Below, in pieces: positions 1,213 through 12,492 of a stretch of 12,809 bases of DNA. Position 1 is the first letter of the stretch, and every line of letters starts with the position of its first letter. This DNA is from Clostridiales bacterium. GTDB taxonomy: Bacteria > Bacillota > Clostridia > Saccharofermentanales > UBA5734. Position numbers and translations under genes: made by a program. The stretch is from assembly GCA_007135995.1 (NCBI GenBank), contig SLHU01000134.1:1-12809 (forward strand), written 5' to 3'. The notes under the pieces were generated by a model. It did not search any database and was not told the origin of the DNA. It saw nothing but the letters and a program-made list of their open reading frames with translations.

Positions 1213-3552
1213 GTGCGGGGTATGATAATGACAAACAGCTGCGATTATATTGACCTGGTATCACCTAGAATTGCCCGCCTGAAAGATGATCTGATGCAGA
1301 CATCTTCTGAGCTTTGTTTTGAGCGGGCTGAAATTCTGACTGCTGCTTATCAAAAATATGAATCGGAACACCCGGTTTTAAGACGCGCCAAAGCACTGCA
1401 TGATGTTTTTTGTCAGCTGCCGATTTTTATCCGCGAAGGTGAGCTGATTGCAGGCCAGCGTGCTTCTAAACTTGCGGGACGGTCCGTGTATCCTGAGTAT
1501 AATTTAAGTCATCTTGATCCGCAGCTGATACCTGCAGAAATCAGGCAATACTGGCAGGGGAAAACCATATCAGACCTGACACATGCACGTTATCCGGAAA
1601 CACTGTTGAAAGCAGAAAAAGAACTGGCCTGCGGCTATGTGACAGGCGCTTCAAGCGGCTATGGGCATGTGATCGTTGATTATGAGAAGGTCATCAATAA
1701 AGGCCTTGTCTCTATCTGTGATGAGGCCAGGCATCATCTTCAAACATTAGATGACGGCGCTGCTGACGACGCGGCCGACAATCTGGAACAGAAAATGTTC
1801 CTTGAGTCGGTCTGTATCACGCTGGAAGGCGTGATGAAGTGGGCAAGGCGATACGCAAAGCTCGCGGATCATCTGGCAGATGTAGCAGCAGATGGAGACA
1901 GGCAAAAAGAACTGCGGCTGATCGCCAGGCATTGCCGCCAGGTTCCGGCCGGTCCGGCCAGAACCTTCCATGAGGCACTGCAAAGTTTCTGGTTTATTCA
2001 CATCGCCTTGCATATTGAGCAGTTCGGATGGTCCATTTCAGCCGGCCGGCTGGACCAGTATCTGTTCCCGTTTTACAGCAGCGCATTAGAAACGGGCGAT
2101 CTGAGTGAACCTGAGCTGTTTGAACTGCTGCAGAATCTGTGGATTAAATTCATGGAAAACACAGATACGGGCGCTGGTCATACTGTATTTCAAAATCTGA
2201 CCCTTGGCGGACAAGATGAGAATGGCAATGACATGAGCAATCGTTTGTCATTCTTGTGCCTTGATGTCATGAAATCTCTTAAGGTCAATCAGCCGGCGCT
2301 TTCTGTCCGCTGGCACCCAAAGATAGACCCTGCATTCTGGACCGCTGTTCATCAGGCGATTGCCCGGGGCATGGGCATGCCGGCGATCTTTAATGACAAT
2401 GTCATCATAGCGGCGCTGGAAGCAAGGGGTGTCAGCCGTGAACACGCGTATCAATATGGCATTGTCGGCTGCGTTGAGCCCTGTATTCCCGGATCTCAAT
2501 ATGGCGTGACGGCAGGCGGTCACCTTAACTGCGCCAAAGCATTGGAGCTGGCACTCAATAACGGCCAGTCGATGCTGACAAAACAGGCAATCGGGGTCAG
2601 AACCGGGTCAGTGTCGTCTTTTAATACATTTGAGGATCTGTGGCAGGCGTACCAGAAACAGGTGGCCTATCTGCTGGATCTTAATCTGATTGAAACAGAC
2701 ATCAACGGTCAGATTCAAAAAGCTTTCGGACAGTGTCCGCTGATGTCCTCGCTGCTGAACGACTGCCTGGCGCAGAAAAAAGAGATGAATCAGGGTGGTG
2801 CCCGGTATAATTTATCCGGGCTTTCAGTTTTCGGTTCAAGTGATACCTGTGACAGTTTTATGTCGATTCGCAAATGGGTGTTTGACCATGCATTGTTGGA
2901 TCTTGAATCATTACGGCAGCTGCTGATATCAGACTTTGAAGATCATCCATCTTTCAGGCTGCTGTTTGCCAATAAAACACCCCGTTACGGCAATGATGTT
3001 CCCGAAGCGGATGATATGATAAACCGGGTCAACGCTGTGCATGCTGATTATCTGTCCGGCAAATATGATTTCAGAGGCGGGCAGTATACATGCGGTGTCT
3101 GGCCTGTGAATGGCCATGTTGATTCCGGAACCTGGACCGCTGCTTTGCCTGACGGCAGGCAAAGCGGACAGCCATTAGCTGATGGCGTAGGGCCATGTCA
3201 GGGTGCCGACAGGCAAGGACCGACAGCACTGTTAAGATCGGTTTCCAAACTGAATAATCTCAGGCACTGGCCGGCAGGGAATACCTGCAACATTAAATTT
3301 TCTGCAGCGTATATGAAACAATCAGCTGATATTGAGCGCCTGAGAGATTTAGTTACCACCTTCATGATCCTGGGCGGCCAGGAACTGCAGATTAATGTGC
3401 TTGATCAGAAAACACTGTTGGACGCCATGGAATTTCCTGAAAAGCATGCTGATCTCATTGTACGTGTCGCTGGTTACAGCGCCTACTTTACCAGACTGTC
3501 CAGGCAGGTGCAGCAGGAGATTGTCTCAAGAACTGTGCAGTGTGTTTCGTGA
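1213..3552 (+). CDS. Glycyl radical enzyme (PFL/glycerol dehydratase-like), substrate unassigned
   Basis: A 779-residue glycyl radical enzyme of normal family length. The N-terminal part has the S-P-R-I-A-R-L-K start of the domain and a P-I-F-I-R-E-G-E-L-I-A-G segment. The middle carries S-I-S-A-G-R-L-D-Q-Y and M-P-A-I-F-N-D-N. The active-site loop is G-C-V-E-P-C with the thiyl-radical Cys420, Glu422 and a second cysteine, Cys424. The C-terminal R-V-A-G-Y-S-A-Y-F loop holds the radical-bearing Gly754. Cys-x-Glu points to the dehydratase/lyase side of the family (glycerol dehydratase, choline lyase, hydroxyproline dehydratase) rather than pyruvate formate-lyase, which uses Cys-Cys. The diol dehydratase Asp expected about 14 residues after the cysteine is Ala here, with Thr at +13, so glycerol or propanediol dehydration is not well supported. 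No radical-SAM activase is in the window. The start is uncertain: GTG at 1213 has AGGGA nearby; ATG at 1222 and 1228 are alternatives. Confidence 0.93.
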   Translation: MRGMIMTNSCDYIDLVSPRIARLKDDLMQTSSELCFERAEILTAAYQKYESEHPVLRRAKALHDVFCQLPIFIREGELIAGQRASKLAGRSVYPEYNLSHLDPQLIPAEIRQYWQGKTISDLTHARYPETLLKAEKELACGYVTGASSGYGHVIVDYEKVINKGLVSICDEARHHLQTLDDGAADDAADNLEQKMFLESVCITLEGVMKWARRYAKLADHLADVAADGDRQKELRLIARHCRQVPAGPARTFHEALQSFWFIHIALHIEQFGWSISAGRLDQYLFPFYSSALETGDLSEPELFELLQNLWIKFMENTDTGAGHTVFQNLTLGGQDENGNDMSNRLSFLCLDVMKSLKVNQPALSVRWHPKIDPAFWTAVHQAIARGMGMPAIFNDNVIIAALEARGVSREHAYQYGIVGCVEPCIPGSQYGVTAGGHLNCAKALELALNNGQSMLTKQAIGVRTGSVSSFNTFEDLWQAYQKQVAYLLDLNLIETDINGQIQKAFGQCPLMSSLLNDCLAQKKEMNQGGARYNLSGLSVFGSSDTCDSFMSIRKWVFDHALLDLESLRQLLISDFEDHPSFRLLFANKTPRYGNDVPEADDMINRVNAVHADYLSGKYDFRGGQYTCGVWPVNGHVDSGTWTAALPDGRQSGQPLADGVGPCQGADRQGPTALLRSVSKLNNLRHWPAGNTCNIKFSAAYMKQSADIERLRDLVTTFMILGGQELQINVLDQKTLLDAMEFPEKHADLIVRVAGYSAYFTRLSRQVQQEIVSRTVQCVS

Positions 3553-3726: not shown

Positions 3727-4746
3727 ATGAAAGCAGTCAGGTTTTTGGGCAAAGGAATCAGTGATGTCGCACCCGTACCGGATCCGGCAGCCGATCCGGA
3801 AAAAGTCTTGCTGAGAATATGGGCCAGCGCCTTGTGCGGCAGTGAGAATGGCACTTACTTCGCAGAAGCTGCTCAGTCGCCAGAAGGCCTGGATTATAAG
3901 GTGCCCGGTCATGAGATGGCCGGCGAAGTGATGGATCCGGGCCCGTCAGATCATTTAAGAAAAGGCGACAGAGTCGTTGTCCAGATTATGGATGGCTGTG
4001 GGGAGTGCTTTTACTGCCGAAACAGCGCAGACCGGTTCTGCGAAAACTTGAATTATGAAGGCGGTACACACGCACAATTTATTGCCCTGCCTGAAAAGTG
4101 CGTGATTAAAGCACCGGATGACATTTCCTACGACACTTTGGTTTTACTGGGAGGCGACACCATCGGCGTTGCCTACCGGGCAACACAAAAACTGTCGCTT
4201 CGCCCGGGCCAGGTCGTTTATGTCTCCGGCGCCGGCCCCATTGGCTTGGGGATGATCACGATGCTCAAGCATTATGGCTGCTTTGTGGTGGTCAGTGAAC
4301 CGCATGCTTACAGAAAAACATTCGCCGGGACCACCGCGGGTGCTGATTTAATTTTAGACCCGAACGCGGATGATATCAAACAGCGGCTGCGTGACTTGAC
4401 AGATGGCGTTGGTCCTGAAATCACCATTGAATGTTCGGGTCATCCTGGTGCACAGATGCAGGCTTTGGACTATACCCGCTGCCAGGGGACCGTCTTATTT
4501 GCCGGTGAGAATTATAAAGAATTGAAGATCATTCCCAGCGCTCATGTTATTCATAAAGAGTTGACAATCAAGGGCGCTTTTTATTTTACTGCAGCCGACT
4601 TTTATGAAATTGTTAAGCTGTACCGCAGCGGTCTGAAGGTTGACCACCTTGTTAGTCACCGGGTTGACCTGAAGGACGCGCCTGACGCGATTGATCAGTT
4701 CTCAAAAGGTCTGACCGGCAAGGTGATTATCCACCCGCAAAGCTAA
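3727..4746 (+). CDS. Zinc-dependent medium-chain alcohol/polyol dehydrogenase
   Basis: A 339-residue cytosolic MDR dehydrogenase that oxidises a secondary alcohol, polyol or sugar alcohol (or runs the reverse reduction) with a nicotinamide cofactor. Catalytic zinc ligands are Cys37 in A-L-C-G-S-E and His62/Glu63 in G-H-E-M-A-G-E. The structural zinc lobe has Cys91, Cys94, Cys97 and Cys105. The Rossmann glycine motif G-A-G-P-I-G is at 168-173, and Glu191 at the end of the second strand favours NAD over NADP. Length and motifs fit the sorbitol/threonine/galactitol-phosphate dehydrogenase group; the substrate cannot be fixed. The ATG at 3727 follows a strong AAGGGGGA site ending 6 nt before it. 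Its position between a glycyl radical enzyme and a sugar isomerase-like protein suggests it feeds or drains a polyol or ketose intermediate. Confidence 0.9.
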   Translation: MKAVRFLGKGISDVAPVPDPAADPEKVLLRIWASALCGSENGTYFAEAAQSPEGLDYKVPGHEMAGEVMDPGPSDHLRKGDRVVVQIMDGCGECFYCRNSADRFCENLNYEGGTHAQFIALPEKCVIKAPDDISYDTLVLLGGDTIGVAYRATQKLSLRPGQVVYVSGAGPIGLGMITMLKHYGCFVVVSEPHAYRKTFAGTTAGADLILDPNADDIKQRLRDLTDGVGPEITIECSGHPGAQMQALDYTRCQGTVLFAGENYKELKIIPSAHVIHKELTIKGAFYFTAADFYEIVKLYRSGLKVDHLVSHRVDLKDAPDAIDQFSKGLTGKVIIHPQS

Positions 4747-4989: not shown

Positions 4990-5838
4990 ATGCGTATAGG
5001 AGGCCCCGTTTTTGTTCGGTCTGAAGATCCTGAAGAGCTGGTTCGGGCACATCATAAAAAAGGATATCGCGCCGGGTTATGTCCGGACTTTCTCAAACTG
5101 GAAGACACCCGTCAAATAGCGGCCGTCAGGGAGACTTTTGCTGCCGGTGATATTGTCATCGCTGAAGTAGGTGCCTGGTGTAACCCGCTGACGCTTCATG
5201 CAGATGAAGCCAGAAAAAACATTGATTATGTTGCAGGGAGGCTGGCTCTGGCTGATGAAGTGGATGCCAAATGTTGTGTTAATATTGTCGGTACCTGGTC
5301 AGAAGCAAACTGGTACGGGCCAGATGCGAAAAACTACAGTGCTGATTTTTTTGACCACGCGGTTGATGTATCACGACAGATTATTGACCAGGTTAACCCC
5401 AAGCGAACACAAATGACTTTTGAACTGATGCCGTACAGCTTTCTGGACTCAGCCAGTGAGTACATGCGTTTCCTAAAAGCGCTGGACAGGCCGGCTGCCG
5501 GGGTTCATTTTGATCCGGTGAACTGCATCAGCTCGGCTCGCCTGTACTACAACAGTACCGCCTTTTTTAAGGACTGCTTCGCGATCTTTGGCGACGACAT
5601 TGCCTCAATTCATCTGAAAGATATAAAGATCAGATCCGAGCCTTTCAGCGTTATGTTTGACGAGGTTCCCATCGGCACCGGTCAGATTGATTATGTTGCC
5701 CTGATGAACATGCTCGCCAAGCTGCCTGAAGACACGCCCGTGCTGTTGGAGCACCTGCCGGATGAGGCAGCGTATGACAAGGCGGCCGGTGTTGTCCGGG
5801 CCAGTGCCGAAAAAGCCGGTGTTTCGCTGTCACTTTGA
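4990..5838 (+). CDS. Xylose isomerase-like TIM-barrel protein (sugar phosphate isomerase/epimerase family)
   Basis: A 282-residue protein of the AP-endonuclease-2/xylose isomerase-like TIM-barrel family. Likely divalent-metal ligands are Glu145 (F-E-L-M-P-Y), Asp175 (H-F-D-P-V-N), His208 (S-I-H-L-K-D) and Glu254 (L-L-E-H-L-P), in the order and spacing typical of epimerases and isomerases of this fold. The G-T-G-Q-I-D-Y motif at 229-235 is also usual. The family includes ketose 3-epimerases, inosose dehydratases and hydroxypyruvate isomerases; the exact reaction is not assigned. ATG at 4990 has AGGA 6 nt upstream. It stands between the zinc dehydrogenase and the GH4 glycosidase, in keeping with a sugar-conversion step. 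The 243-nt spacer before it becomes strongly A/purine-rich over its last 120 nt. Confidence 0.87.
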   Translation: MRIGGPVFVRSEDPEELVRAHHKKGYRAGLCPDFLKLEDTRQIAAVRETFAAGDIVIAEVGAWCNPLTLHADEARKNIDYVAGRLALADEVDAKCCVNIVGTWSEANWYGPDAKNYSADFFDHAVDVSRQIIDQVNPKRTQMTFELMPYSFLDSASEYMRFLKALDRPAAGVHFDPVNCISSARLYYNSTAFFKDCFAIFGDDIASIHLKDIKIRSEPFSVMFDEVPIGTGQIDYVALMNMLAKLPEDTPVLLEHLPDEAAYDKAAGVVRASAEKAGVSLSL

Positions 5839-5970: not shown

Positions 5971-7386
5971 ATGTCTAAGATTGCTTTAATTGGAGCTGGA
6001 AGCCTTATTTTTTGCAAAACACTGCTCAACGACATGTTCGCGACGCCGGCTCTCAGCGGCTCAACGTATGCGCTGATGGGGCCGACCCTATGGAAACTGG
6101 AAAAAATGAAAACATATGCCGATAATATTATCCAGAAAAATGATCTGGACGCACAGGTGTATTGTACAACCGACCGCAGAGACGCGCTCAAAGACGCGGA
6201 TTACGTGATCCTCATGTTCCAGATTGGCGGTCTGGAAGCCTATACGTTTGACTATGAGATTCCGATGAAATACGGGGTTGACCAGTGCATTGGTGATTCC
6301 ATGGGCCCCGGCGGTATCTTTCGCTGCCTTCGCTCAGCGCCGGTTCTGATGGGTATTGGCGATGACATGAAAGAACTGTGTCCGGATGCCTATCTGCTTA
6401 ATTATGTTAATCCGATGGGAGCGGTCTGTACGACTTTAGGCCGGGCAACGGATGTTAAATTTGTCGGTCTTTGTCATGGGGTTCAGACCACGCTGGATTT
6501 GATCGCGGGATATACGGATTGTGAAAAAGATGAGATTGACTATCTGTGTGCCGGCATCAATCACATGGCCTGGTTTTTAAAACTGGAAAAAGACGGTAAT
6601 GATCTTTATCCGCTGCTGAAAGCAAACATGGAAAAACCGGCGTACTACAAAAATGAGAAAGTCCGCGGTGAAGTGATGCGCCATGCCGGCTACTTCATGA
6701 CTGAATCCACCGGTCATTTGTCGGAGTATCTGCCCTGGTTTCGCAAAAACCAGAAAGAACTGGATCTATACTGCGATGAACCGGCCTTTGGCGGTGAAAG
6801 CGGTGCCTACCTGAACTTTAGTCAAATGGTTGCCGAAAAGTTTAAAAACACTGATGTCCTGTCGATTGAGACAGGTGATCTGGAACCACGTTCTAAAGAA
6901 TATTGCTCGTATATTCTGGAGGCACTGGAGACCGGCGTTCCCTTCAGGCTCAATGGCAATGTGATCAATCAGGGCATGATCACGAACCTGCCTGATGGCG
7001 TATGTGTGGAAGTACCGATGTATGTTGACCGCGAAGGCCTGCATCCCATGATCGTCGGCGAGCTGCCGATGCACCTGGCCGCGATGAACCAGACAAACCT
7101 GACCGTTCAGTCGCTGGCAGCGCAGGCCGCGATTACCGGTGACCCGAACCTTGCATTCTGGGCCTGCGCGCTCGATCCTCTGACCGGTGCTGTTTTGTCG
7201 CTTAAAGAAATCCGCGATATGGTGATTGAACTGTTTGAAGCCGAAGCTCCCTGGCTGCCGCAGTTTGAAGGCAAGACACTGGATAAGATCGACATAATCG
7301 ATATTCCTGAAGACACCGTACCGGCACCGGTACCGGTCGACCCGGCCCTGGCCATTAACAGCCGTTTTGGGAAACTGGCGGAGTAA
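5971..7386 (+). CDS. GH4-family glycosidase (MelA/LplD-like alpha-galactosidase, -glucosidase or -galacturonidase)
   Basis: A 471-residue family 4 glycoside hydrolase. These cytosolic enzymes cleave glycosides by a redox-elimination mechanism that needs NAD and a divalent metal. Visible motifs are the N-terminal Rossmann G-A-G-S at 8-11, the substrate loop I-G-D-S-M-G-P-G-G at 107-115, N-Y-V-N-P-M-G at 144-150, and the metal ligands Cys168 in G-L-C-H-G-V-Q and His198 in G-I-N-H-M-A-W. The combination of G-D-(S/T)-(M/L)-G-P-G-G and C-H-x-V-Q is closest to the MelA alpha-galactosidase and LplD galacturonidase branch and unlike 6-phospho-alpha-glucosidases. The C-terminus is rich in Pro and Val (D-T-V-P-A-P-V-P-V). 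The sugar and linkage cannot be assigned. As the last gene of the plus-strand block it probably releases the sugar processed by its neighbours. It converges on the permease gene with 29 nt between stops. Confidence 0.92.
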   Translation: MSKIALIGAGSLIFCKTLLNDMFATPALSGSTYALMGPTLWKLEKMKTYADNIIQKNDLDAQVYCTTDRRDALKDADYVILMFQIGGLEAYTFDYEIPMKYGVDQCIGDSMGPGGIFRCLRSAPVLMGIGDDMKELCPDAYLLNYVNPMGAVCTTLGRATDVKFVGLCHGVQTTLDLIAGYTDCEKDEIDYLCAGINHMAWFLKLEKDGNDLYPLLKANMEKPAYYKNEKVRGEVMRHAGYFMTESTGHLSEYLPWFRKNQKELDLYCDEPAFGGESGAYLNFSQMVAEKFKNTDVLSIETGDLEPRSKEYCSYILEALETGVPFRLNGNVINQGMITNLPDGVCVEVPMYVDREGLHPMIVGELPMHLAAMNQTNLTVQSLAAQAAITGDPNLAFWACALDPLTGAVLSLKEIRDMVIELFEAEAPWLPQFEGKTLDKIDIIDIPEDTVPAPVPVDPALAINSRFGKLAE

Positions 7387-7424
7387 CGCGCTGTATCATC
7401 TGGCAGAATAACACGCTACATCAT
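7384..7424. repeat. 25-bp-period imperfect duplication across two convergent gene ends
   Basis: TAACGCGCTGTATCAT at 7384-7399 and TAACACGCTACATCAT at 7409-7424 match at 13 of 16 positions with a period of 25 bp. The first copy contains the TAA stop of the GH4 gene. The second contains the TAG stop (minus strand, 7416-7418) of the permease gene. No terminator hairpin with a T-run is seen between the two stops. Confidence 0.55.
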
Positions 7425-9215
7425 AAAATACGCGGTGATGATGGTCAGCAGCGTATAAATAAAAGCGGGGATCATATTAAAGGCCATGATTTTGCCTGTT
7501 GAGGAAAAGGTGCCTGTTGTGGAGGTGACGGCTACCACATTGTTAATGCAGAACATGTTGCCAATCGCCGCGCCCGATACTTGCAGCGCAACGATCAGAA
7601 CCGTTGAAAAACCCAGTATATGAGCTGTTTGAAACTGTAGTGAAGAAAACATAATACAAGATACAGTGCAGGAGCCGGACACATAGGTGCCTAGCATGCC
7701 GATCAGTGGTGAAACAACAGGGAAAGCCTGACCAGTTGATTCTGCCAGTCCGGAAGCGATTTGCGTCAGCATGCCGGGCAGTCCGGCTGTGTTAATGTGT
7801 GAATTCATCATGATCTGGACCATGGCGATCCCGCAGATCAGCGCAACAGCCAGAAGTCTTAACTGCTTGACCGTCTGGCCCAGCATCTGGCCAACGGTTT
7901 TCAGGTTTAGACCGCGGATCAGACCCGTTATGACAGCTGTGACAATAAAGGGAAAGAGCCCTGCGTTAAGAAACGGTGCCAGGCTGTAATTGGCTCCTGT
8001 AACGCCCAAAATAGATATCTGATTAAACGTAACAGATTGTAGAAGTGATTTAATACCAATTGCCGGAATACGGCTTAAAAGAAGAAAAACCGCAATCACA
8101 AGATAGGGTGTCCAGGCCATAAGCAAAGAAGGCGATTCATTTTTTCTGACGATCGCCTCATCGGCCTGGACGGGTATTTTAGTTGCTTCTATGCTGTCGA
8201 TCGCCTCATCGGCCCGGGCGAGTATTTTTGTCGTTTTTTCCCCGGTGACAGCTTCATCAGTCAAGTCACGATTTTCAGTCACTTTTTTACTGTCGACGGC
8301 TTCATCGGCTCGGGCGGGCAAGCTGGTTTGTTTTGTCTCATCTTTCTCCGGGTGTGATTCTTTCGCGTCAGGGAACGTCCAGACATGGCGCGGGACGAGA
8401 AATTTCATCCTGGCTGCGAGAATTGTCAAGGTCAATCCGATGAGCGCGCTGATAATGGACGGAAATTCAGGACCGATTGTGTTTGCTAAGATCAGATAGG
8501 GGATCACAAAGACCAGGCCTGAATAAAGTGCGAAGGGAATTGCTTCCATTGCTGACTTTAAACGCCTGCCATGGCTGAAACTCACCGTTAATACGATCAC
8601 AATCATCACGGGCACGAAGACCCCGCCAACCGCCAGTAAAGCCGCCACGCTGCCGGCCAGCTGTCTGGTAAACTGTTCAATATCCTGGCCTGAACCTGTT
8701 ATATCCGAGCTGATAGAGGCAATTGTGGTCAGCGTGGGCGTGCCAACTGCCGCGAAGGGAACAGGTGTGCTGTTCGCGATCAGCGCGACCATGCAGGCAG
8801 CGACCGGCGGGAAACCCAAGCCAACAAGTAATGGCGCCGCCAGCGCAGCCGGTGTGCCAAACCCGGCTGCCCCTTCTATGAACGCGCCAAACATCCAGGC
8901 GATTATAATCGCCTGGATGCGTTTGTCGGGTGTAATTCTGGAAAAACCGCTGTTGATCACATCGATAAAACCAATTTTCTTTAGAACATTGAGCAGAAGA
9001 ATAGCACCAAAAACAATAAACAAAACATCAAATGATCTCAAAGCCCCCGTCAGCGCGAAGGCTGTGATCACTCTGGCGGGCATGCCCCAGTAAAGCCAGC
9101 CGATGAGTATCGTTGACGCAAAGGAAATGAAAAGTGCTTTGGCAGCCGATAAGCGAATGCCAACCATTAAGAAGATTGCTAACAAGACAGGTAAAAGCGC
9201 CAGTAATGTTTCCAT
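7416..9215 (-). CDS. lctP: LctP-family L-lactate/glycolate permease with an expanded repeat-containing loop
   Basis: A 599-residue polytopic inner-membrane transporter of the LctP family (E. coli LldP, GlcA), which imports L-lactate, D-lactate or glycolate with protons. Family landmarks are I-T-P-D-K-R-I-Q at 94-101, [13 protein letters not shown] at 110-122, A-N-S-T-P-V-P-F near 147-154, and near the end G-T-Y-V-S-G-S and a conserved N-V-V-A-V segment. Hydrophobic helices fill residues 1-270 and 365-599. Between them lies a charged loop of about 95 residues, much longer than in E. coli, with four 16-residue repeats. The start is placed at the ATG at 9215 because GGAGG lies 5 nt before it; an ATG one codon earlier is too close, and a TTG at 9227 has no ribosome site. 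Downstream of a glyoxylate-type gene set, glycolate is a plausible substrate, by inference. Confidence 0.92.
8130..8321 (-). repeat. Four in-frame 48-bp repeats in the permease cytoplasmic loop
   Basis: The core A-D-E-A (T-D-E-A in the second copy) recurs with its Asp at residues 304, 320, 336 and 352, an exact 16-residue period. A typical unit is [16 protein letters not shown]. At DNA level the TCGCCTCATCGG core recurs at 8153 and 8201, and its variants (GCTTCATCAG, GCTTCATCGG) follow at 8251 and 8299, all in 48-bp steps. The segment is charged and hydrophilic, with no membrane span. It inserts where LctP proteins normally have a short variable loop, so the transporter should tolerate it. 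Confidence 0.85.
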
Positions 9216-9575
9216 CATCGCCTCCAAAGAGCTTTGCTGATCATTCGTCTGAAGAAATACAGGTTAATATGCAGGCAATTCGTTACGAGTAGTTATTTAT
9301 GCTTTGTGTGACACGGCATCAATAAGGCTGCCCGAACCATGATCAAGTGCCTTTTTAAAACACATTGATGCTAGTTTCACATTGATGCTAGTTTACAGCA
9401 CGCTTATACAGGCTGATCAAACAGCATTCAGCTTCAGTCCATAAAAAGGAAGCAGGTCATCCTTCTAACTGATGATGAATTGCTGCACCACTGCGGATGG
9501 ATGCCTGCCGTGCTTTTTATTGATTGCCTTGATGTTTATCTGCTGTGCTATGGCCTTGATGTTTGCCTGCTGTGT
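9216..9575. other. 360-nt non-coding spacer upstream of the permease gene
   Basis: No credible gene on either strand. It holds the GGAGG ribosome site of the permease (9221-9225), an exact 17-bp tandem duplication (9361-9394) and an imperfect 27-31 bp repeat abutting the end of the hydroxyacid dehydrogenase gene (9500-9584). A permease promoter or a terminator for the dehydrogenase gene would lie here, but no convincing -35/-10 pair or hairpin with a T-run was found by eye. Confidence 0.6.
9361..9394. repeat. Exact 17-bp tandem duplication
   Basis: CACATTGATGCTAGTTT occurs twice with no mismatch and no gap, at 9361-9377 and 9378-9394. The perfect identity suggests a recent event. It lies about 150 nt upstream of the permease start, in the likely promoter region. 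Confidence 0.95.
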
Positions 9576-9584
9576 TTACTGATT
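9500..9584. repeat. Imperfect tandem repeat, three units of 27-31 bp, ending in the dehydrogenase stop
   Basis: Units begin at 9500, 9531 and 9558 with GATG followed by a T/C-rich stretch and a (C)TGC(C/T)GTG core. From 9526 and from 9553 the two best copies agree at 21 of 24 positions, sharing GCCTTGATGTTT and CTGCTGTG. The last unit runs into the final codons of the minus-strand hydroxyacid dehydrogenase gene. Confidence 0.65.
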
Positions 9585-10535
9585 AACAACATTCACAGGC
9601 TGCCCTTCGACAAAGCTTTTCAGGTTATTCACAGCGATGTCCATCAGCCTTTGTCTCGATTCTTTTGGCGCCCAGGAGATATGAGGCGTGATCAGGCAGT
9701 TTTTGGCTTTCAGCAGCGGGTTGTCTGCTTTGATCGGCTCACTGGAAACAACATCCAGTCCTGCGGCGAAAACCTTGCCGCTGTTGAGCGCGTCAGCCAG
9801 ATCCTGTTCAACAATCAGCTGCCCCCTTGAATTGTTGAGTAGAATAACACCGTCTTTCATCTGACTGATACTGGTCTGATTGATCATATCAATGGTATCT
9901 GGCAAGGCAGGGCAGTGAAGCGAGATGATATCCGATTCAGCATAGATGTCATCAAGTGAAACATATTTCATCTGCTCATTTTCCAGCGCTTTATTCTGAT
10001 ATTTATCGAAAGCCAGGACGTTCATGCCTAATGCCTGAGCAATCTGTCCTGTTTTCTGGCCGATCCGGCCATAGCCAATGATGCCCATCGTTTTGCCTGC
10101 CAGCTCAATGAGCGGATAATTCCAATAGCAAAAATCCTGGCACTTTGTCCATTCACCGCGACTGACAGAACTGGCATGATCTCCGATATGGTGGCAGATC
10201 TCAAGCAGCAGCGCGATCACAAACTGCGCCACGGCGTCTGTGCCATAAGTTGGAATATTTGTGACCAGAATTCCTCTTTTACTGGCTGCTTCCAGATCAA
10301 CTACATTGTATCCAGTTGCCAGCACACCGACATATTTGACATTCGGACAAGCCGCAAAGACAGCATCGGACAGCACGACTTTGTTTGTTAAGACAATTTC
10401 AGCGTCACCAATACGTGAAACGGTCTGGTCCTCTGGCGTACGGTCGTACACAGTCATATCGCCTATTGCCTCAAATCCCGACCAGTCAAGATCGCCGGGA
10501 TTAAGCGTATATCCATCTAAAACGACAATTTTCAT
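9576..10535 (-). CDS. D-2-hydroxyacid dehydrogenase, glycerate dehydrogenase/hydroxypyruvate reductase type
   Basis: A 319-residue cytosolic NAD-dependent D-isomer-specific 2-hydroxyacid dehydrogenase. The nucleotide motif G-Y-G-R-I-G is at 154-159, and Asp177 at the end of the next strand favours NAD(H). The catalytic triad is Arg237 (N-N-S-R-G), Glu266 (D-V-x-x-x-E-P) and His285 (T-P-H-I-S-W). The D-F-C-Y-W-N-Y-P-L-I-E-L-A-G-K-T segment at 134-149 is typical of glycerate dehydrogenases, which interconvert hydroxypyruvate and D-glycerate; glyoxylate reduction is often a side activity. ATG at 10535 has GAGG 6 nt upstream. With the carboligase-like gene and the isomerase upstream on the same strand, it would supply the final reduction of a glyoxylate-to-glycerate route. 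Family is firm; substrate is likely but unproven. Confidence 0.92.
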   Translation of the reverse strand: MKIVVLDGYTLNPGDLDWSGFEAIGDMTVYDRTPEDQTVSRIGDAEIVLTNKVVLSDAVFAACPNVKYVGVLATGYNVVDLEAASKRGILVTNIPTYGTDAVAQFVIALLLEICHHIGDHASSVSRGEWTKCQDFCYWNYPLIELAGKTMGIIGYGRIGQKTGQIAQALGMNVLAFDKYQNKALENEQMKYVSLDDIYAESDIISLHCPALPDTIDMINQTSISQMKDGVILLNNSRGQLIVEQDLADALNSGKVFAAGLDVVSSEPIKADNPLLKAKNCLITPHISWAPKESRQRLMDIAVNNLKSFVEGQPVNVVNQ

Positions 10536-10562
10536 AAAATACCTCTTCTTTCTATCCTAATT

Positions 10563-10610
10563 TCTATGAATCCTAAATTGTATGCATCGCAGATTCTATG
10601 TTCATTTCCC
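10563..10610. repeat. Degenerate 16-bp tandem repeat, three units
   Basis: Units start at 10563 (TCTATGAATCCTAAAT), 10579 (TGTATGCATCGCAGAT) and 10595 (TCTATGTTCATTTCCC), exactly 16 bp apart. A partial relative, TCTATCCTAATT, precedes them at 10551. The array lies directly upstream of the hydroxyacid dehydrogenase start. Confidence 0.5.
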
Positions 10611-10690
10611 CTTTTTTAAAAGCAGCGTGGTTCATTAAAACTTCTAAAAACGCGGTTGCCTTCTGCCTTCTCAGGAGGTTTATCTAAATC

Positions 10691-10719
10691 AAACGTTCCT
10701 GATATAACGTTTCTGATAT
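10691..10719. promoter_or_regulatory. 14-bp tandem repeat forming a 7-bp dyad; candidate operator or hairpin
   Basis: AACGTTCCTGATAT (10692-10705) is followed at once by AACGTTTCTGATAT (10706-10719), with one mismatch. Because AACGTT is self-complementary, the pair also makes an inverted repeat, AAACGTT (10691-10697) with AACGTTT (10706-10712), separated by 8 nt. On the minus strand this lies just after the isomerase stop and about 160 nt before the dehydrogenase start. It could bind a dimeric regulator such as the adjacent IclR protein or form a small RNA hairpin. No T-run follows on the minus strand. Confidence 0.4.
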
Positions 10720-10730
10720 CATGCATGCAC

Positions 10731-11642
10731 TTAGAGCAGCGCCCAGGCGCGATTCAACACGCGTTTGGCATTCGCGATCACAAGTTCTGAATCTTCATCT
10801 TTCCAGGGTTTAACTTCAAATGATAAAACATAGGGTTTTTGTTCGTTGAAAAAGCCTTCGTTTTTCAGCACCCGCAGAAAATCAAGGACCTGATTGACAT
10901 CATTGGCGCTGCCCGGGAAACCAAATCGCTGGTGCTCATCGCCATAGCCTTCTGCTGCGGGGTCTTTAATGACTGTATTGCCAATATGAAAATGGGTCAG
11001 GAAAGGTTTCAATGTACGCACAACATATTCATTTGACTCGTACGTCATGGGAATATGTGAAAGGTCTATCAGGAGCCCAAAATTATTATACTGTGTCCGG
11101 ACATCTGCCGCAAAGCGAGCAGCTAAAGCAGCAGGCCCGATCAGCGCCTTTTTGGCGATGTCATAATCGAAAACCTCCAGCTCAATAAACATGTTTTTTG
11201 TTTTTGCGTATTCACAAAGTTTCAGCGTTGTTTTCAGCAGCTGCTGATAGGCCTCGTCTTTTGTCTCAACATCCCATTTGCCGCTCAAAAAAGCAATGCC
11301 TTTGCTGCCCAGTTCATATGCTTCGTCGATCGCGTCAATTAAGGTGCGCTCAGCTTTTGCTCTTTCATCTTCGTTTATAGCATTCGGATTCAATCCTGTT
11401 GTCAGCAGCCGCGGCTGAGCGCCATAGCAGACTGTCATATGAGATGATTTCAGGAGGTCGGCAACATCTGTCCGCTGCTGATGATCTTTAATCCAGTTGA
11501 CTTCAATTGCATCAAAATAGTCGTCAGTCGCGATTTTTTTGATGATAGACTCTGTGTTTTCACAGGTTCCTTTCAGTAAACTGGGATAGGCCATAAAGGC
11601 TACCAGACCTACTTCAAAAAATTTCTTCATCGATTCATTCAT
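10731..11642 (-). CDS. TIM-barrel sugar phosphate isomerase/epimerase-family protein (hydroxypyruvate isomerase candidate)
   Basis: A 303-residue xylose isomerase-like TIM-barrel protein. Probable metal-site residues are Glu156 (I-E-L-E-V-F-D), Asp193 with His196 (L-I-D-L-S-H), His219 (H-F-H-I-G-N) and Glu276 (L-S-F-E-V-K-P-W). It is longer than classical hydroxypyruvate isomerase (about 260 residues) and only distantly like the plus-strand barrel protein in this window. ATG at 11642 follows AAGGTGA, and the gene begins 12 nt after the IclR gene stops, so the two are almost surely co-transcribed. Between a glyoxylate-carboligase-like gene and a hydroxypyruvate reductase-type gene, conversion of tartronate semialdehyde to hydroxypyruvate is the natural guess, but that rests on context. 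An epimerase acting on another small sugar or sugar acid is the alternative. Confidence 0.88.
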   Translation of the reverse strand: MNESMKKFFEVGLVAFMAYPSLLKGTCENTESIIKKIATDDYFDAIEVNWIKDHQQRTDVADLLKSSHMTVCYGAQPRLLTTGLNPNAINEDERAKAERTLIDAIDEAYELGSKGIAFLSGKWDVETKDEAYQQLLKTTLKLCEYAKTKNMFIELEVFDYDIAKKALIGPAALAARFAADVRTQYNNFGLLIDLSHIPMTYESNEYVVRTLKPFLTHFHIGNTVIKDPAAEGYGDEHQRFGFPGSANDVNQVLDFLRVLKNEGFFNEQKPYVLSFEVKPWKDEDSELVIANAKRVLNRAWALL

Positions 11643-11654
11643 TTCATCACCTTT

Positions 11655-12437
11655 TTAACCTTCGTATCCAAGTACTTTTGATATTTCATTCGCTGTTTCA
11701 ATCACATGCTGACGAATAAATTCAATTTTCTGCATATTCATTCGGCTGACAGGACCAGAAACACTGATGCTGGCGACAATATGCGATGTATAGTCCCTGA
11801 TCGGCGCAGCGACGCAGCGAGCGCCGATTTCACACTCCTCGTCATCAAGCGCGTAACCCTTGCCTGATACCTGCTCAAGCTCTGACTGGAGACTTTCATA
11901 CGATGTGATCGTATGATGCGTCAGTCTTTGCAGACCTTCTTTTTCAACGCGTGTCCGAAGCGTTTCGCGATCATGATTTAAAAGCAAAAGCTTGCCGACG
12001 CCTGTACAATGAAGCGGTGCTTCTTTGCCTATGCGCTGCATGACCTGCAGAATATTGCTTGGTCCGCTTTGAACATCAATGTAAACTGCGCGATTGTTTT
12101 CTTCAATCGCCAGGCAGGCAGATTCACCCACTTTATGAACAAGTTCAACCAAGTACGGCTTGACCAGATCGCGCATATTATACTGCTCGTAGACCATCGT
12201 CCCGATTTTGCTCAGTTTCAGTGTAAGTGAATAACGAAGTGTTTCAGGATTTTGCTTCACATAATTGTTTTTCTCCAGCGTCGCAAGAAAACGAATCACT
12301 GTGCTGGCAGGGTATCCCAGTTGTTGCGCGATATCCTGAAGCCGGACAGGCTGCCTGTTTTCTGCCATATATTCTATGATACGAAGCGCTTTTTCGAGTG
12401 ACTGATTATTATTTTTTATTTTGTCGTCATTAGCCAT
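11655..12437 (-). CDS. IclR-family transcriptional regulator
   Basis: A 260-residue IclR regulator: an N-terminal winged helix-turn-helix (residues about 13-64, with the helix-turn-helix around R-L-Q-D-I-A-Q-Q-L-G...T-V-I-R-F-L) and a C-terminal effector-binding domain (about 80-257). Asp198, Cys208, Ser225 and Ser227 fall at the same spacing as Asp212, Cys222, Ser239 and Ser241, which bind glyoxylate or pyruvate in E. coli IclR; numbering and residues of the latter are from memory. The start is ATG at 12437, with TGAGGT ending 7 nt before it; an in-frame ATG at 12479 would add 14 residues lacking a ribosome site. It is the first complete gene of the minus-strand block and most likely controls it, perhaps with itself, in response to a small 2-oxo acid. 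Confidence 0.93.
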   Translation of the reverse strand: MANDDKIKNNNQSLEKALRIIEYMAENRQPVRLQDIAQQLGYPASTVIRFLATLEKNNYVKQNPETLRYSLTLKLSKIGTMVYEQYNMRDLVKPYLVELVHKVGESACLAIEENNRAVYIDVQSGPSNILQVMQRIGKEAPLHCTGVGKLLLLNHDRETLRTRVEKEGLQRLTHHTITSYESLQSELEQVSGKGYALDDEECEIGARCVAAPIRDYTSHIVASISVSGPVSRMNMQKIEFIRQHVIETANEISKVLGYEG

Positions 12438-12444
12438 ACAGATT

Positions 12445-12450
12445 ACCTCA
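12445..12450 (-). promoter_or_regulatory. Ribosome binding site deciding the start of the IclR gene
   Basis: On the minus strand TGAGGT stands 7 nt before the ATG at 12437. It supports the 260-residue product over the longer frame from 12479. Confidence 0.65.
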
Positions 12451-12492
12451 ATGTAAATCGAAAAATGATAAACAATCATCTAAGTTTACCAT

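Follow-up and report, generated by a model that had tools for sequence, protein, structure and literature searches.

One account of the glycyl radical enzymes (GREs) describes many of them as having no known function (PMC11574389). The gene considered here, on the forward strand of a 12,809-nucleotide stretch of DNA from a Clostridiales bacterium (the whole of which is called the window), encodes a GRE. Searches of the Protein Data Bank (PDB) by sequence and by fold bring up propanediol and glycerol dehydratases, about 35% identical, as its nearest chains. The enzyme belongs to a real, well-bounded, and separate subfamily of this known enzyme kind, uncharacterised as far as our searches reach and without a representative among the NCBIfam models and PDB entries searched. 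It is an oxygen-sensitive radical enzyme of an uncultured anaerobe, probably one that cleaves a C–O bond in a sugar-like molecule.

For GRE eliminases a C-x-E motif has been described, and the same source has Phe333 of the other eliminases filling the place of the substrate-binding Ser in HypD (PMC7077986). Beyond glycerol and propanediol dehydratase (PDB 1r8w, 5i2a, 9rco), the closest described systems are the trans-4-hydroxyproline dehydratase HypD, the choline trimethylamine-lyase CutC, and YbiW and PflD (PDB 8id7, 8id0, 8yjo), two of these last crystals holding 1,5-anhydrohexitol phosphates according to the PDB titles. A 2024 paper reportedly assigns 1,5-anhydrohexitol lyase activity to YbiW and PflD. 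In glycerol dehydratase, His281, Asp447, and Tyr640 have roles in the active site.

What is new here is a set of subfamily marks, namely, a shortening of the segment that bears Phe333, a T-A-G-G-H sequence, Trp273, and Trp630. This signature lends itself to searching, the activase partner found in a relative makes the subfamily testable, and the altered pocket points to substrates. Were the substrate truly a sugar derivative, anaerobic carbohydrate breakdown would gain a radical route through this enzyme.

The enzyme and its subfamily

The gene carries the features of its class, that is, a PFL-like barrel (561.5 bits, residues 18-636), a catalytic Cys, and a C-terminal Gly_radical domain (90.3 bits, residues 656-760), both domain matches lying far above chance. 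An earlier note, made from the letters of this DNA, had recognised a GRE here with a G-C-V-E-P-C loop, and its residues are as it gave them.

1213..3552, + strand: GRE, 779 residues from GTG 1213; 776 or 774 residues if ATG 1222 or ATG 1228 is the start

Judged by eye, the upstream sequence AGGGAAAG at 1203-1210 suits ATG 1222 better than GTG 1213 and suggests the former as the start. Residue numbers nevertheless keep the GTG start; ATG 1222 would shift them by 3 and ATG 1228 by 5.

The homolog set consists of 120 proteins listed, the window protein included, of 820 at E <= 1e-100 drawn from 7998 scored candidates; with three added loci, these form the family of 123 used for alignment and tree. 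Among the matches listed, the 122 relatives are 51-87% identical to the window GRE, and their source names include Clostridia, Anaerolineae, and Candidatus Poribacteria. Fifteen GREs served for comparison: CutC, HypD, PflD, YbiW, a Pdu-linked propanediol-type enzyme, six other plasmid-borne GREs, and four from the same metagenome-assembled genome (MAG), whose GREs on contigs C32 (a pyruvate formate-lyase by its model), C255, and C159 were excluded from the tree. The labels of L047 (PflD), L045, and L046 rest on NCBIfam scores above cut-off and that of YbiW on the gene name of its record, while L049 was named propanediol dehydratase from its pduA/pduB neighbours rather than from its own annotation.

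The 123 family members split from the 15 other GREs with a support of 1.0 on a branch of 0.57, the support being that of an unrooted split and becoming 0.945 after re-rooting. The YbiW reference falls outside this split, pairing with L052 and L022 (support 1.0). Deeper branches are partly weak (0.426, 0.582): the MAG GREs on C312, C349, and C266 adjoin the family at 0.582 on long branches, and a wider split that unites the family and these three with C50 and L050 has a support of 0.941. As an observation on the MAG itself, which is incomplete, it holds eight GRE loci (C32, C50, C116, C159, C255, C266, C312, and C349), of which those on C266, C312, and C349 group together (0.931), share 28-34% identity with the window GRE, and stay below every NCBIfam cut-off.

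Model scores draw the same boundary. The window GRE lies under the cut-off of all 12 NCBIfam models that it matches, as do the family members of two further genomes, G084 and G936, under every cut-off. Equivalog models are missed by about half, while the CutC, HypD, and PflD references pass their own: the window GRE scores 518.7 bits against a cut-off of 1100 for HypD (NF043068; HypD reference 1513.4), 447.1 against 1050 for CutC (TIGR04394; reference 1567), and 477.7 against 1109 for PflD (PRK09983, NF007437; reference 1489.2). Values of 494.0 and 449.1 against cut-offs of 1000 were obtained for the HpsG and HpfG sulfopropanediol dehydratase models (NF048011, NF048009), 320.5 and 276.0 against 1100 and 1150 for the aryl-acetate decarboxylase models (NF033718, NF033715), and 126.4 against 994.2 for pyruvate formate-lyase (TIGR01255). 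The narrower miss on the PFL2-3 model TIGR01774 (621.5 bits vs. 678.2) tells little, because the true CutC and HypD references also fall short of it (663.9 and 657.5). No isethionate sulfite-lyase model is among the NCBIfam matches, and the corresponding chain, PDB 7kq3, reaches 321.9 bits where the best chain has 471. The same eight models are matched at E <= 1e-60 by each of the 29 family members scanned, the bit scores given here being those of the window protein only. The unclear class proposed in the earlier note stands, and the enzyme does not cluster with the characterised groups tested.

The family is rare in the genomes searched (E <= 1e-170, with only the best few first-look candidates scored per genome and the window's own genome counted): 3 of 188 in the order, 2 of 391 and 2 of 362 in overlapping draws from the class that hold the same two genomes, and, in the phylum, 1 of 398, which is the window's own genome. 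One of three genomes in the order of G084 has it, namely, G084 itself. A scan of genome contigs gave a single locus, L009, which is apparently the same contig as locus L023 of the same-genus genome G939, since each has 3,332 bases and is 87% identical to the query; the two are counted once. The viral contigs searched hold no relative, the plasmids searched hold only distant GREs (best identity 34.9%), and none of the open-licence papers listed in the literature searches describes the subfamily in its title or abstract opening.

Residues that mark the subfamily

The catalytic Cys loop reads G419-C420-V421-E422-P423-C424, with Thr433 and Ala434 at +13 and +14 from the Cys, and the glycyl loop reads R751-V-A-G754-Y. 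The positions that matter for the comparison are as follows.

1666..1668, + strand: His152 codon; aligns with the beta-1 His of glycerol/propanediol dehydratase, HypD, and PflD; 123/123 in the family
2029..2031, + strand: Trp273 codon; His in glycerol/propanediol dehydratase, aligned Trp also in HypD; 122/123 in the family
2146..2196, + strand: shortened segment K312-N328; 17 residues vs. 25-26 in the 11 plasmid-borne comparison GREs
2470..2478, + strand: catalytic Cys loop C420-V421-E422; C420 and E422 each 123/123
2482..2484, + strand: Cys424 codon; a variable position (S 66, C 41, G 10, A 5, L 1 of 123)
2509..2523, + strand: T433-A434-G435-G436-H437; signature of the family, +13 to +17 after the catalytic Cys
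3100..3102, + strand: Trp630 codon; Tyr in glycerol/propanediol dehydratase; 123/123 in the family
3472..3474, + strand: Gly754 codon; predicted glycyl radical site in RVAGY

The C-x-E motif of the GRE eliminases is present in all 123 family members, in support of the dehydratase- or lyase-type assignment that had been drawn from Cys420 and Glu422. The Asp found at +14 in 6 of the 15 comparison GREs is lost throughout the family (123/123); Thr433 is invariant and Ala434 nearly so, position +14 being Ala in 118 and Ser in 2 of the 120 homologs, and Ala in the three added loci. The earlier note had singled out Thr at +13 with Ala at +14. The residues and the loss of the diol dehydratase Asp are indeed as it described, but the combination is no oddity: Thr at +13 with a residue other than Asp at +14 recurs in five of the 15 comparison GREs (CutC, YbiW, L051, L052, and L053), and we rejected it as a unique mark. 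Cys424, which had been put forward as an added feature, was likewise rejected as a functional residue, with only 41 of 123 members carrying Cys there.

More distinctive are twenty positions, T144, G435, H437, and W630 among them, whose residue is shared by at least 96% of the family and occurs in none of the 15 comparison GREs. The K312-N328 segment has 17 residues in 119 of 123 members and 16 or 18 in the remainder, and its missing part covers Phe333 of glycerol dehydratase (numbered from the PDB matches). YbiW and PflD, unlike the window GRE, have a full-length segment, as does CutC, which shares the C-x-E loop and Thr at +13 yet carries Asp in place of His152, lacks A-G-G-H, and is 32% identical. 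HypD resembles the window enzyme in His at 152, the aligned Trp at 273, and His at 635, and differs in the Cys-loop residues that follow C-V-E.

Proposed chemistry, substrate, and alternatives

From its conserved motif, and also from its predicted fold, the window GRE probably catalyses C–O elimination. As the catalytic subunit of a canonical glycyl radical system, it would receive its radical on Gly754 from a separate radical-SAM activase, and the radical would move from there to Cys420. The resulting thiyl radical would abstract a hydrogen atom from a hydroxyl-bearing carbon, Glu422, aided by His152, would deprotonate that hydroxyl, and the adjacent C–O bond would break by loss of water or by opening of a ring or ether, yielding a carbonyl. 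The chemistry is better supported than the substrate class and than the roles given to the pocket residues, which come from alignment. Smaller residues in the Cys loop and the lost Phe segment suggest a larger pocket, opened by the A-G-G loop and the loss of that segment and lined by Trp273, Trp630, and His437; the two Trp and the additional His would go well with a substrate rich in hydroxyls. The most likely substrate would be sugar- or polyol-derived and bigger than glycerol or propanediol, a view suggested by the neighbouring polyol-type dehydrogenase, TIM-barrel protein, and GH4 protein and by the FGGY kinase and fucose-isomerase-like protein found elsewhere, and the dehydrogenase beside the GRE would process the polyol or carbonyl. 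The carbohydrate or polyol surroundings put forward in the earlier note are to this extent supported. We hold the full reading, a canonical glycyl radical C–O eliminase acting on a larger sugar- or polyol-derived substrate, to have about even prospects of being correct. A bolder extension, that loss of the Phe segment enlarged the pocket so that an intact sugar ring, a sugar acid, or a glycoside undergoes elimination or is opened, is possible but doubtful.

Several points weigh against an eliminase with such a substrate. The C-x-E motif also occurs in aryl-acetate decarboxylases, and thus is not exclusive to eliminases, and fold scores do not part those decarboxylases from all eliminases. The pocket roles are transferred by alignment. 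Three of the four other measured GREs of the same MAG also have a short K312-N328 segment (13-15 residues; the fourth has 57), so that shortness alone is not unique to the family. Finally, gene context is known from four genomes (the window's, G939, G936, and G084) and is unlike among them, a subtilase gene following the GRE in G936.

An ordinary glycerol or 1,2-propanediol dehydratase that diverged in uncultured anaerobes is very unlikely, even though such enzymes give the best PDB matches in sequence and fold and share His152 and Ser274 with the window GRE. Identity to them is only about 35%, the +14 Asp is gone from every family member, their His and Tyr are replaced by Trp273 and Trp630, a His stands at +17, the Phe333 segment is missing, and none of the ten window open reading frames (ORFs) scanned encodes a microcompartment shell protein. 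A function like that of YbiW and PflD, the opening of 1,5-anhydrohexitols or their phosphates, would fit the ligands named in the PDB titles, the Thr at +13 and small Gly at +14 of YbiW, the His at 635 that PflD shares with the window GRE, and the genes for an FGGY kinase and an isomerase-like protein that lie beside the GRE of G084. It is nonetheless unlikely: the family parts from YbiW and PflD in the tree (31% and 35% identity), residue 273 is His in the one and Ser in the other, the PRK09983 score stays far under its cut-off, and the ten ORFs scanned include no aldolase or sugar phosphotransferase gene. Quite unlikely, too, is a decarboxylase or another C–C or C–N lyase built on the same loop, considering that the decarboxylase models score well below the 447-519 bits of the HypD, HpsG, PRK09983, HpfG, and CutC models.

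A further alternative, compatible with a C–O eliminase of sugar- or polyol-derived substrates, concerns activation: the GRE may have no activase of its own here and may be switched on by that of another GRE. A radical-SAM domain is found in none of the ten window ORFs scanned, and the GRE-activase model TIGR02494 has 14 matches in the genome and none on contig C116, bearing out what had been said of the window. Four strong activases of the MAG each lie beside another GRE, and no activase-model match falls on the 105.8-kb contig C1 that carries the G084 GRE (52% identical). However, the MAG is incomplete, with 432 contigs, and the partner may be missing from it. Moreover, G936, whose GRE (L024:1316-3604) is 57% identical, has a canonical activase (L024:369-1319; TIGR02494, 353.1 bits vs. 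a cut-off of 174.35) directly upstream, and the two genes overlap by 4 bases at the GRE start. Of the MAG activases, the closest shares 47% identity with this G936 activase, a distance that rather favours sharing; on the HypD-activase model the G936 protein has 332.1 bits, under the equivalog cut-off of 425. On balance, a shared activase is rather unlikely. The family is not activase-less; since the activase is adjacent in G936 and unmatched on the G084 contig, linkage appears to vary among members. The assertion of the earlier note that the enzyme must be activated from an unlinked or more distant locus is not supported, given the overlapping G936 gene and given that the window is apparently an entire contig of a MAG only 59% complete. 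G084 itself has 31 matches to the GRE-activase model at E <= 0.001, some weak or pieces of one gene, which points to many glycyl radical systems in that genome.

Genomic surroundings

The window corresponds to G000:C116:1-12809, in a MAG of 2.19 Mb that is 59.5% complete. For the window protein, the longest contig on record has 12,809 bases, which suggests that the window is the entire contig. Its plus strand carries, in order, the end of an octopine-dehydrogenase-like gene, a C_GCAxxG_C_C family protein (422-964, directly upstream of the GRE with a gap of 248 bases), the GRE, and three further genes.

3727..4746, + strand: Zn-type medium-chain dehydrogenase/reductase (MDR) dehydrogenase; nearest solved chains threonine 3-dehydrogenase, ketose reductase, and sorbitol dehydrogenase
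4990..5838, + strand: xylose-isomerase-like TIM-barrel protein (AP_endonuc_2) by domain scan; no PDB sequence match
5971..7386, + strand: GH4 family protein; above the PRK15076 alpha-galactosidase subfamily cut-off

The MDR dehydrogenase is under all NCBIfam equivalog cut-offs; a GRE followed by the same dehydrogenase recurs in G939 (GRE 87% identical). In G084, on the GRE strand and past a short ORF, lie genes for an L-fucose-isomerase-like protein (28.2 bits, slightly below the Pfam cut-off of 29.3), an FGGY kinase, and an apiosidase-like protein. Among the plasmid-borne GREs, that of Enterococcus raffinosus (L051) has Thr at +13 and Ala at +14, an adjacent activase, and a position four genes after an alpha-rhamnosidase, and is itself under all equivalog cut-offs shown.

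After the GH4 gene, the minus strand (7416-12479) holds a separate cluster that encodes an LctP-type permease, a D-2-hydroxyacid dehydrogenase, a second TIM-barrel protein with no PDB sequence match, and an IclR regulator. This cluster looks like a module for hydroxyacid uptake and use. Its LctP permease (7416-9227) is matched by Pfam and NCBIfam models in two stretches, with a charged, repeat-like insert visible by eye in the middle.
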